Assembly: GCF_003841485.1 (NCBI RefSeq)
Contig: NZ_REFY01000004.1
Location: 186,001-250,000 of the forward strand
Source of the DNA: Natrarchaeobius halalkaliphilus
GTDB lineage: Archaea > Halobacteriota > Halobacteria > Halobacteriales > Natrialbaceae
Length of the DNA stretch: 64,000 nt
Reading direction: 5' to 3'
A program made the position numbers and the translations under genes. Positions within the stretch are counted from its first letter, which is position 1, and each line of letters begins with the position of its first letter. Below are positions 26,536 through 45,957 of the stretch, one piece after another. The notes under the pieces were generated by a model that searched no databases, was not told the DNA's origin, and saw only the letters and a program-made list of their open reading frames with translations.

Positions 26536-26811
26536 TTAGAGGTCGACGTACTGTGCTTCCCACTCCCGGCGAGCCTCGAGCTCTCGGCGGCCACGGCGGG
26601 TAAGTGTATAGAAGTTCGTCCGGCGATCTCTGGTCCCTTTCTCGACCAGGCCTTTGTCGACGAGCGTATCGAGGTTGGGATAGAGACGTCCGTGATGGAT
26701 CTCCTTTTCGTAGTATTGTTCGAGTTCCTCTTTGATGGCAAGTCCGTGCGGTTCCTCCTCGCCAGCGATGACGTAAAGCAAGTCACGCTGAAATCCTGTC
26801 AAATCGTACAT
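26536..26811 (-). CDS. PadR-family transcriptional regulator
   Basis: 91 aa. A winged helix: MYDLTGFQRDLLYVIAG, then HGRLYPNLDTLVDKGLV as recognition helix and RRTNFYTLTRRGRREL as the wing. It resembles the short haloarchaeal PadR/phiH1-repressor-like proteins, which lack a long dimerisation helix. The AAAATTCGACAGT region just upstream probably holds its promoter. The target is unknown. Confidence 0.9.
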   Translation of the reverse strand: MYDLTGFQRDLLYVIAGEEEPHGLAIKEELEQYYEKEIHHGRLYPNLDTLVDKGLVEKGTRDRRTNFYTLTRRGRRELEARREWEAQYVDL

Positions 26812-27074
26812 TGGGAAAGTACCATCCGTACTTACTGTCGAATTTTAATAAGGCTATCGGGTCGTTACGACGGAAAGAGCGGCTATTACCGACGAGGGAA
26901 CGGTATTCGCAGATCACGAAATGATAACGACCATGATGGATCGGTCACCGATCCACCTTTAACGCGGAGTTCATGTTTACTGTGCGTGTATTTCTGCGCG
27001 GGATAATACTGCGACGGAAGTGACAGAACTAGCCGTCCGAAGAAATGTAACTAGCAGTGAGTATCGTAAACAGG
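26812..27074. other. intergenic gap between PadR and the RNA candidate
   Basis: About 260 bp, moderately AT-rich. No ORF with family features. It probably contains the PadR promoter (AATAAG/TAAAAT-like tracts at ~26840-26860). Confidence 0.4.
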
Positions 27075-27168
27075 AAAGCAAATCGCGTGGCGGAAAAATG
27101 CCACGCGATCGCTTGCCGCCCTGAATTGGTCCCCGCTGACGCTTCGGCCCTCCAAGCGAAGCGTCACC
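27075..27168 (-). ncRNA. candidate small structured RNA
   Basis: On the minus strand a perfect 10-bp hairpin, TGACGCTTCG/CGAAGCGTCA (27166-27137), has the loop CTTGGAGGGC. After a ~28-nt linker comes a perfect 9-bp hairpin, TCGCGTGGC/GCCACGCGA (27108-27083), followed by TTTGCTTTCC, terminator-like. CTTTAAG at 27196-27190 would start transcription near 27166, at the base of the first hairpin. No start codon lies in the element. Strand choice rests on this promoter. Confidence 0.55.
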
Positions 27169-27189
27169 TGATAGGTTTCGCTGGTCCGA

Positions 27190-27196
27190 CTTAAAG
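27190..27196 (-). promoter_or_regulatory. TATA box for the candidate RNA
   Basis: On the minus strand this is CTTTAAG, about 25 bp upstream of the first hairpin. It is also downstream of the small gene at 27300, so it would give the RNA its own promoter. Confidence 0.45.
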
Positions 27197-27226
27197 GTAA
27201 CGACACAACCTGAAATCGTGATATGT

Positions 27227-27260
27227 TCGGTCGGGAGAACGATCGAACGATCCCGACCGA
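27227..27260 (-). terminator. hairpin downstream of the 48-aa gene
   Basis: A perfect 10-bp inverted repeat, TCGGTCGGGA (27227-27236) with TCCCGACCGA (27251-27260), 14-nt loop. It lies 40 bp past the stop of the minus-strand gene at 27300 and just before the RNA promoter, so it probably separates the two transcripts. Confidence 0.5.
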
Positions 27261-27299
27261 GGATCGGTGTATATCGGATCTCCGTCGGCGAGAACGAGA

Positions 27300-27446
27300 C
27301 TAGATGTGTTCTTCCTCGAGCACCCAGCCGATCGCGCGTTTATAGTGCGTGAACATCTCCCTGACGCCATCGTGGCGCATCTCTTCGCTCTCTAGGTTCT
27401 CTGCGAGGAACTCGTACTGTTCTCTGATCTCTGCTTCGTCGCGCAT
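27300..27446 (-). CDS. conserved haloarchaeal 48-aa protein
   Basis: MRDEAEIREQYEFLAENL, ending GWVLEEEHI. It is all-helical and acidic with a conserved MFTHYKRAIGWVLEEE end. I recognise the sequence type as conserved in haloarchaea, but it has no named function. The longer frame reaching 27566 adds 40 residues of GC-rich noise and is rejected. Confidence 0.7.
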   Translation of the reverse strand: MRDEAEIREQYEFLAENLESEEMRHDGVREMFTHYKRAIGWVLEEEHI

Positions 27447-27623: not shown

Positions 27624-28295
27624 TTAGATCCCGTCGTCTTCGTCCTCGTCGTCGCCCATGCCGTCGTCAGCTTCGTCGTCGGTCTCGGCTTCTTCACCGA
27701 GCGTGAGGGTGAGTTCTTCGTCATCGCCGTCTATCTCGACGTCGTCTTCGGCCTCGTCGCCCTCGTACTCGGCGCGGGCCGTGTACTCACCGTCCTCGAG
27801 GTCTTCGAACTCGACCTGGCCGTCCTCGTCCGTCTCTTCTTCCCACTCCTCTTCGTCTTCGTCATCGAGTCCGTTCTCGTCCTCGTCGTCGTCCATCCCG
27901 TCGTCTTCATCATCGAGTCCGTTCTCGTCCTCGTCATCGTCCATCCCGTCGTCTTCATCATCGAGTCCGTTCTCGTCCTCGTCATCGTCCATTGCACCGT
28001 CTTCTTCGAGCGTGACGGTCGCTCCCTCGACGGGTTCGGCTTCGTCGTCTTCAACCGTGACCGTAAGTGTATAGGTCTCGTCTTCGTCCTCGTCGTCGTC
28101 CATCGGATCGTCGTCTTCGTCCTCGAGTCCGTTCTCGTCCTCGTCGTCGTCCATCGGATCGTCGTCGGGATCGTCTGCCGCAGGGTCATCATCTTCGTCA
28201 CCGGGACCCTCGTCGGCACAGCCGGCCAGAACGAGCGCACTTGCAGTACCTGCCGCGACAACGAACTTGCGTCGGTTGAGTCTTGGGTGGGACAT
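27624..28295 (-). CDS. exported acidic repeat lipoprotein
   Basis: 223 aa, extremely acidic. The N-terminus carries a twin-arginine signal (RRKFVVAAG) and lipobox LAGC with C26 as the predicted lipidated residue. A beta-sandwich of the carboxypeptidase-regulatory/Cna-B type (TYTLTVTVEDDEAEPVEGAT, then DGQVEFEDLEDGEYTARAEY) is split by three near-identical 16-residue units, MDDDEDENGLDDEDDG. Two related 17-residue units precede the domain. It is anchored outside the membrane and may bind divalent cations; that is inference. Confidence 0.85.
   Translation of the reverse strand: MSHPRLNRRKFVVAAGTASALVLAGCADEGPGDEDDDPAADDPDDDPMDDDEDENGLEDEDDDPMDDDEDEDETYTLTVTVEDDEAEPVEGATVTLEEDGAMDDDEDENGLDDEDDGMDDDEDENGLDDEDDGMDDDEDENGLDDEDEEEWEEETDEDGQVEFEDLEDGEYTARAEYEGDEAEDDVEIDGDDEELTLTLGEEAETDDEADDGMGDDEDEDDGI
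27856..28000 (-). repeat. 48-bp coding tandem repeat, three units
   Basis: Three nearly identical 48-bp units inside the lipoprotein gene encode (A/G)MDDDEDENGLDDEDD. The near-identity at the DNA level points to recent duplication or slippage, so copy number may vary between strains. Boundaries are approximate. Confidence 0.7.
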
Positions 28296-44665: not shown

Positions 44666-45895
44666 TTGGGTGTCTTGGGCGGCCTCGAGCAGCTCGGGTG
44701 GGCCGCCTCAAAACTCTGGAACGTCGGTCGCTACTACACACAAGAACAGTGGGATGAGACGGGCGAGATTCCCGATGACAGGGAACTCAAGACCGAACTC
44801 AAAGGCCACGAACGCTACACGGACTTACATTCTCAATCCAGTCAGCGCGTTCTCGAAGAACTCGCTGAAGCGTTCAACGGCTGGTTCGGCAAGCGTCGGA
44901 ACGGCGATGACCGCGCCCGACCGCCCGGCTACCGCAAAAATGGAGACTCCCACCCGCGTTCAACCGTGTCGTTCAAAGCGGCTGGCTTCAAGCACGACGC
45001 ACAGTTCAACCGCGTCCGCCTCTCAAAAGGCCGAAACCTCAAAGAACACCGTTCGGACTTCATCCTGTGCGAGTACCAGACGCGCCCGGATGTTGACCTG
45101 ACCGAGTGGGACATTCAACAGGTTCGCGCGATCTACAAGCGCGACGAGTGGCGGCTTCAATTCGTCTGTCGCACCACTATCGACCCGGAACCGCCGGGTG
45201 ACGAAGTGGGTGGTGTTGACCTCGGGATTTGCAATTTCGCCGCCGTCTCGTTCGGCAGTGAGTCGGTGTTGTATCCCGGTGGCGGACTCAAAGAGGACGA
45301 ATACTACTTCACGAAGAAGAAAGCCAAGTGCGACGATTCTTCGTCCCGTGAGGCTACTCGTATTGACCGGAAGCGGACTGGTCGGCGGACACACTTCTTG
45401 CACGCACTCTCGAAAGCAATCGTAGAGGAGTGCATCGAACGAGGTGTCGGTACTCTTGTCATTGGCGACCTCGATGGCATCCGAGAAGACGACGAGAACG
45501 GCGAACCACGCAACTGGGGCGACCACGGCAATCTCGACTTGCACGGGTGGGCGTTCGACCGCTTCACAACGCTACTTGACTACAAGGCGGAAGCCGAAGG
45601 TATCGACGTGGAGTTGGTGTCCGAACGCGATACATCGAAGTCCTGTTCGGCGTGCGGCCACACAGATGACAACCAACGTGTCAAACGTGGATTGTACGTG
45701 TGTGAGAAGTGCAATACGGTTGCGAACGCGGACGTGAATGGTGCGGAGAACATTCGGCAAAAGGTACTCCCGAGTCTCGCCACGGATGGCGGTGATAGGG
45801 ATAACGGCTGGTTAGCACAGCCAGCGATTCATCTGTTCGACCGTAGTGAGGGACGTTTCGCCCCACGAGAACAGGTCGTGAACCGCGAACCTTAA
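44666..45895 (+). CDS. tnpB: TnpB (IS1341-type), 5'-truncated
   Basis: 409 aa from a TTG. N-terminal sequence picks up the family at LGWAASKLWNVGRYYTQEQW, so ~20 residues of the usual start are missing and an in-frame TGA at 44648 blocks extension. RuvC motif I is D185 (GVDLGICNF), motif III D356 (NADVNGAEN). Motif II reads VIGDLDG with G267 where canonical TnpB has Glu. Zinc cysteines are C327, C330, C346, C349. TnpB is an RNA-guided nuclease. No TnpA is adjacent. Confidence 0.88.
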   Translation: MGVLGGLEQLGWAASKLWNVGRYYTQEQWDETGEIPDDRELKTELKGHERYTDLHSQSSQRVLEELAEAFNGWFGKRRNGDDRARPPGYRKNGDSHPRSTVSFKAAGFKHDAQFNRVRLSKGRNLKEHRSDFILCEYQTRPDVDLTEWDIQQVRAIYKRDEWRLQFVCRTTIDPEPPGDEVGGVDLGICNFAAVSFGSESVLYPGGGLKEDEYYFTKKKAKCDDSSSREATRIDRKRTGRRTHFLHALSKAIVEECIERGVGTLVIGDLDGIREDDENGEPRNWGDHGNLDLHGWAFDRFTTLLDYKAEAEGIDVELVSERDTSKSCSACGHTDDNQRVKRGLYVCEKCNTVANADVNGAENIRQKVLPSLATDGGDRDNGWLAQPAIHLFDRSEGRFAPREQVVNREP

Positions 45896-45957
45896 TATCC
45901 CAACTCAGCGGTGCGGTGCCGTGGGATTCCCGCGTCTTCAGGCGCGGGAGGATGTCA
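45780..45957 (+). ncRNA. probable TnpB guide-RNA scaffold (3' end of tnpB)
   Basis: Haloarchaeal TnpB loci make a sense RNA overlapping the 3' end of the gene and ending at the element boundary. Here the tail is a hairpin, CCCGCG (45929-45934)/CGCGGG (45943-45948), followed by AGGATGTCA at 45949-45957. The boundary and hence guide start are inferred from the family's usual end. 5' limit is a guess. Confidence 0.5.
45929..45957 (+). mobile_element. right end of the TnpB element
   Basis: A subterminal hairpin (CCCGCG-TCTTCAGG-CGCGGG) and terminal GGAGGATGTCA are typical of haloarchaeal IS1341-type right ends. The matching left end upstream of 44666 was not recognised. Confidence 0.55.

Follow-up and report, generated by a model that had tools for sequence, protein, structure and literature searches.

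The window is a 64,000-nt stretch of the Natrarchaeobius halalkaliphilus genome, and on its minus strand a candidate gene for a small non-coding RNA lies between the genes for a 48-aa protein and a PadR-family regulator. The features of the locus, all on the minus strand, are as follows, with the evidence for each in brackets.

27066 to 27169, minus: predicted small non-coding RNA gene, about 100 nt (match to covariance model R1 at 27069-27166, 122 bits; ends predicted)
27190 to 27202, minus: putative promoter, BRE and TATA box CGTTACCTTTAAG (logo over 70 loci)
27169 to 27170, minus: predicted transcription start, initiator CA with the A at 27169 (logo)
27137 to 27166, minus: 5' hairpin TGACGCTTCG-CTTGGAGGGC-CGAAGCGTCA, with UGGAGGGC invariant in the loop (aligned copies; stem compensations in L138/L273 and L270)
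27115 to 27136, minus: purine-rich single-stranded linker GCGGGGACCAATTCAGGGCGGC, its GCGGGGACC part near-invariant (aligned copies)
27077 to 27114, minus: 3' hairpin AAGC-ATCGCGTGGC / GCCACGCGAT-GCTT, variable in sequence and conserved in structure (covariation)
27093 to 27098, minus: U-run T5C inside the 3' hairpin loop, possibly a terminator or Lsm site (sequence; U-run counts; PMC7237163)
27066 to 27080, minus: pyrimidine-rich 3' end GCTTTCCTGTTTAC, the likely terminus of a long form (aligned copies)
27300 to 27446, minus: upstream neighbour, 48-aa protein MRDEAEIREQYEFLAENLE... (conserved across the class, in 31/70 loci)
26536 to 26811, minus: downstream neighbour, PadR-family regulator of 91 aa, hsRosR homologue (PF03551; 6qfd, E 4e-25; 40/70 loci)

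Read on the minus strand from 27169 to 27066, the order is AGG-TGACGCTTCG-CTTGGAGGGC-CGAAGCGTCA-GCGGGGACCAATTCAGGGCGGC-AAGCGATCGCGTGGC-ATTTTTCC-GCCACGCGATTTGCTT-TCCTGTTTAC. At numerous loci in the class the RNA sits between the 48-aa and PadR genes; DUF7117 is often found upstream and an Amphi-Trp protein encoded on the opposite strand. The 48-aa protein matched no family in Pfam or NCBIfam. Adjoining the 48-aa gene (27624-28295, minus) is a lipoprotein-like ORF that contains near-perfect copies of an acidic repeat, DDDEDENGLDDEDDGM. Elsewhere in the window (44666-45949, plus) lies a TnpB-like ORF, IS1341 type by appearance, whose 3' end carries Rfam sot0042 (RF02656, 112 bits), an ordinary transposon-associated RNA.

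Structure, strand and coding potential

The preliminary description, made from the letters of the window, had proposed two perfect hairpins behind a TATA box. Its 10-bp first stem is present on the minus strand, TGACGCTTCG pairing with CGAAGCGTCA around CTTGGAGGGC; the second stem is perfect as claimed, with 10 pairs (ATCGCGTGGC/GCCACGCGAT) instead of 9 and an extension through AAGC/GCTT; the T-rich end falls into two parts, T5C in loop 2 (27098-27093) and CTTTCCTGTTT past the stem; and the box given as CTTTAAG, 25 bp ahead of stem 1, is found as TTTAAG at 27195-27190, at a distance of 23 nt. Against dinucleotide shuffles the fold scores z -4.4 on the minus strand and z -5.1 on the plus strand, and since folding alone indicates neither strand nor function, we relied on comparative analysis.

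In the aligned copies the 5' hairpin and linker are almost invariant, reading TGACGCTTCG-YYTGGAGGGC-CGAAGCGTCA-GCGGGGACC, a stretch of about 40 nt that includes both arms of helix 1; one such alignment includes loci fetched by the motif itself, and the loci selected with R1, chosen otherwise, agree with it. The linker had been called conserved-looking and the first loop had been said to expose GGAGG, both of which the copies bear out, the loop being invariant for UGGAGG. The rare variants of helix 1 still pair, either through G-U wobbles in the 5' arm or through double compensation, CTCTG/CAGAG in L138 and L273 and CTCCG/CGGAG in L270 (Halorubrum lacusprofundi pHLAC01). In the 3' hairpin, an alignment of the whole class, fitted to the structure, has 20 pairs with two-sided changes over 278 cells, with 94% of cells paired, a result reached by 0/500 shuffles and compared with 27-47% in slid controls; a structure-free MAFFT alignment of 30 copies from close relatives (A1) agrees, with 9 pairs showing compensatory change. 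The covariation search in other haloarchaea that had been suggested at the outset thus found both stems conserved with compensatory changes, and covarying pairs exceed the shuffled and slid controls, as in a structured non-coding RNA. The loop of the 3' hairpin has a longest U-run of at least 3 in 81/97 copies. An outer helix, CAGG/CCTG, is paired in 79% of cells class-wide and finds support only near the window's family, so we rejected it as a class-wide feature; a loop-linker pseudoknot (UUGG/CCAA) was also rejected, because variants in the loop (CUGG) and in the linker (CCUA) show, judged by eye, no sign of changing together.

Upstream of the RNA, a logo over 70 loci aligned at the RNA start, paralogs included, has C and G (.89 each) at -36/-35, A (.94) at -32, TT (1.00/.97) and A (.99) at -28 to -26, and an initiator C (.69) and A (.81) at -4/-3, about 23 nt past the TATA centre. 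A conserved start therefore has a BRE/TATA motif 25-30 nt ahead of it, as in an independent archaeal transcription unit, and most paralogs outside the chromosomal site have the same BRE/TATA and initiator. As predicted from this logo, the RNA gene is in possession of its own BRE/TATA promoter. The compact minus-strand unit of about 95 nt starting near 27166 that had been proposed is consistent with the fixed BRE/TATA, the compensated stems and the near-universal presence in the class. The accompanying idea that the plus strand would expose an anti-Shine-Dalgarno-like CCTCC lacks support because the conserved promoter is found on the minus strand only.

Two readings would dispense with a non-coding RNA altogether. 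The first is a short leaderless coding gene starting with GTG or TTG at 27167, for which one could cite a GTG that in most relatives coincides in part with the predicted start, and a frame that is open in the window copy. However, the loop of hairpin 1 is 10, 11 or 12 nt long, which puts the invariant 3' part into frames that differ between species (43/25/1 of 69 copies) while its nucleotides are unchanged, and an NTG is missing at the start position in 20/216 copies. Because these 1-nt indels shift the frame within invariant nucleotides, and because the RNA has no ATG (the absence of a start codon had been noted earlier), we regard it as non-coding; the indel pattern effectively refutes the coding gene, the least probable of all the readings considered here. 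The second is a palindromic DNA-level element, such as a site for recombination, replication or regulator binding. Both arms of hairpin 1 are invariant in sequence, so that conservation of the 5' module would, by itself, be expected of a DNA site too, and there are plasmid copies, one of them with an integrase gene about 4 kb away. Against this stand the BRE/TATA and initiator ahead of the copies, paralogs included, and the transcription of one paralog (sRNAhts10, below). Pairing is also kept by compensatory changes, both in the 3' hairpin and in those copies of hairpin 1 that have diverged, and this very improbable reading is largely refuted.

Two known archaeal RNA classes did not accommodate the RNA: it contains neither a C box (RUGAUGA) nor a D box (CUGA) of a C/D box sRNA, and an H/ACA guide is rejected because ACA is missing and there is no Rfam match. 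A search of 26850-27350 on both strands against Rfam 15 gave no match at the gathering score or at E up to 5, and a literature search for the sequence string of the RNA gave none. Searches for a viral or phage origin likewise returned no matches.

Distribution in the Halobacteria and additional copies

A DNA search located the element in 123/125 genomes of the window's family, with main matches of at least 82% identity and nearly always a single copy; the 2 genomes without it are incomplete. With R1, the covariance model built from the 30 copies of A1, we found matches in 387/391 genomes of the class, in 375/377 of good quality and in 83/86 genera. In a sample of the phylum the RNA is present in 80/81 class members by R1, and a repeat with a broader model, R2, agrees; neither model matched any of about 312 phylum genomes outside the class. 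When named genomes were scanned for an exact 26-base match, at least 119 stretches were recovered, and all titles among the matches listed are haloarchaea or uncultured archaea. Conservation in 123/125 family and 387/391 class genomes shows that the element is not a product of chance. By R1 it is missing in the class from G142 and three members of family f11 (G286, G337 and G409), where a search for diverged homologues found nothing convincing. All four of these genomes are small (1.9-2.3 Mb).

Family f4, which includes Haloferax and Halorubrum, has two copies as a rule. Second copies adjoin unrelated genes: an FMN monooxygenase, TrkA/DUF and a transducer, or an apparent radA/atpD pair. Plasmid copies (L262, L263, L270, L271) occur in Haloarcula sp. 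GH36, near ParA, and twice on H. lacusprofundi pHLAC01, and an extra copy at about 5727 of L265 (G109:C5:137000-149000) precedes a BREX operon, brxA-brxC-brxB (PADLOC), by about 200 bp. Each of the two pHLAC01 copies adjoins a related 325-aa hypothetical gene on the opposite strand. At L038-L041 (G012, G074, G006, G055) we also observed short repeats, GGAGGGYCGMASCGTCAGCGGG, sometimes in tandem, that resemble the loop, 3' arm and linker without the 5' stem arm.

We therefore consider it probable, at about 0.88, a figure given jointly for the explanation as a whole, that the locus truly encodes a small non-coding RNA belonging to the class Halobacteria, one copy of which keeps a fixed place on the chromosome while some families have additional copies elsewhere, and that its product, about 100 nt long, folds into a near-invariant 5' hairpin and, beyond a purine-rich linker, a 3' hairpin that is conserved in structure and mostly has a U-rich loop.

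The sRNAhts10 paralog of Haloferax

One member of this family has been seen before. sRNAhts10 is reportedly the HVO_2213s of Haloferax volcanii described by Heyer et al. in 2012. According to a study of H. volcanii sRNAs, sequencing and bioinformatics revealed it as a forward-strand RNA; it is shared by 18 other haloarchaea as a conserved RNA, and its deletion gave mild phenotypes (PMC3956466). In the Haloferax locus L258, genes run in the order CetZ1, oadhA4, TrkA, 78-aa protein, DUF, RNA, transducer; CetZ1 corresponds to HVO_2204 (identity confirmed by PDB 4b46), oadhA4 to HVO_2209 and the 78-aa protein to HVO_2212. The second copy follows the ninth gene past CetZ1, which by synteny in this relative of H. 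volcanii places it on the forward strand, with HVO_2213 and HVO_2214 on either side. Like sRNAhts10, this TrkA-side paralog is intergenic after HVO_2213 and on the same strand. Because the gene order and the three anchors fit, the second Haloferax copy is almost certainly sRNAhts10/HVO_2213s, on the basis of gene order in a relative; H225.2R was rejected as the TrkA-side copy because its locus number does not fit.

The Haloferax copies at this site (L127, L142, L258) have a 5' module identical to that of the family. The TrkA-side paralog differs from the locus described here in its neighbourhood and in a 3' hairpin loop without a U-run, and its annotated length is 161 nt, as against about 100 nt here, so the ends of the RNA may vary. 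For hts10, the available part of PMC3956466 describes neither a structure nor a family and contains no promoter logo or class-wide distribution. The earlier statement that the RNA matches no known class holds for Rfam, from which the family is missing. The family is not wholly new, one paralog having been sequenced and deleted before. As short intergenic RNAs conserved among haloarchaea, its members resemble H225.2R (HVO_1727s2), H3.2 and HVO_2908s of H. volcanii; RNAs like H3.2 and HVO_2908s are enriched in vesicles (PMC10927574).

How the RNA may act

Paralogs in unrelated neighbourhoods share one 5' module, and the constancy of this module amid changing neighbours argues for action in trans. 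Control of the neighbours by pairing was rejected, since duplex energies of the RNA with the PadR mRNAs (n=40) and the 48-aa mRNAs (n=31) are no better than those of shuffles. What the module would contact is a more tentative matter. One possibility, with a probability of about a third in our estimate, is a base-pairing sRNA, the UGGAGGG loop and GCGGGGACC linker serving as seeds for C-rich mRNA sites and the 3' hairpin as stabiliser and terminator. The accessible purine-rich loop and linker, the modular build and the paralogs with a constant 5' part would fit, as would the often mild and pleiotropic effects of Haloferax sRNA deletions (PMC3956466). However, about 40 invariant nt with both stem arms exceed what a seed requires, and there is no excess complementarity to the PadR mRNA, the 48-aa mRNA or the rRNA operon, in which complements of 7-9 nt are no more frequent than for shuffles; the last result also led us to reject an antisense to rRNA.

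A function of GGAGG through the anti-Shine-Dalgarno sequence is possible. The RNA might bind ribosomes, its GGAGG loop acting as a decoy Shine-Dalgarno on the 16S anti-SD and favouring leaderless over SD-led initiation. UGGAGG is invariant in the loop, and at its 3' end the host 16S reads ...GGATCACCTCC (CACCTCC); moreover, 72% of Haloferax mRNAs are leaderless (PMC4983044) and H. volcanii has non-coding sRNAs with ribosome occupancy (PMC12482152). Yet the match is just 5-6 bp, CCTCC is easily matched by G-rich loops, complementarity to the rRNA operon is at chance level, and a decoy does not explain why the C that follows, the stem and the linker are invariant as well. We therefore consider a decoy improbable.

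Because the arms of helix 1 are kept letter for letter while the 3' hairpin is free to vary, recognition of shape and sequence together is favoured over a short antisense seed, and binding of a protein or the 30S subunit is the mode of action that we would tentatively prefer, at somewhat less than even odds. In that case a conserved haloarchaeal protein, or the 30S subunit, would dock on the UGGAGGGC loop, the 3' stem arm and the GCGGGGACC linker that make up the 5' module, through which the RNA would act in trans, and the 3' hairpin would mark and protect the RNA end, its U-rich loop possibly serving as an Lsm site or a pause/termination signal. T5C is a 95% efficient terminator in Haloferax (PMC7237163). 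Transcription could possibly stop at T5C within loop 2 and yield a short form of about 76 nt, which would be a puzzle because selection keeps the downstream 3' arm. A broader proposal, doubtful at present, is a class-wide housekeeping RNP in which a single-copy RNA with a protein- or 30S-bound 5' module would tune translation globally (for example, SD-led versus leaderless initiation) and would have been copied to plasmids and beside defence genes.

Analogies exist in distant systems. RNAs of the CsrB/RsmZ type, which act as protein sponges, expose GGA in an array of hairpin loops; the RNA here likewise carries GGA in a hairpin loop and linker, in a single hairpin rather than an array. To our knowledge, archaea lack CsrA. 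Alphaproteobacterial double-hairpin sRNAs of the NfeR1/alpha-r14 type, with CCUCCUCCC loops, share an SD/anti-SD-related conserved loop motif (PMC10746234, PMC3927594), but with opposite polarity (GGAGGG here, CCUCC there), in another domain of life and without homology, so that the likeness is one of analogy only.

Fast evolution has been ascribed to haloarchaeal sRNAs, 22 of 27 tested being restricted to H. volcanii (PMC3956466), and a nearly class-universal RNA with about 40 nt almost unchanged contrasts with this picture. The core of the preliminary description, a candidate RNA that now appears near-universal in haloarchaea, is supported by the comparative data. Automatic annotation has missed it because it is absent from Rfam; the covariance models and the promoter map now define the RNA family. 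The single deletion of sRNAhts10 was mild, but a second copy was still present, and the two Haloferax loci are identified here as joint targets. Its near-universality in the class and the roughly 40 nt that have hardly changed make a basic role for this RNA in haloarchaea probable.
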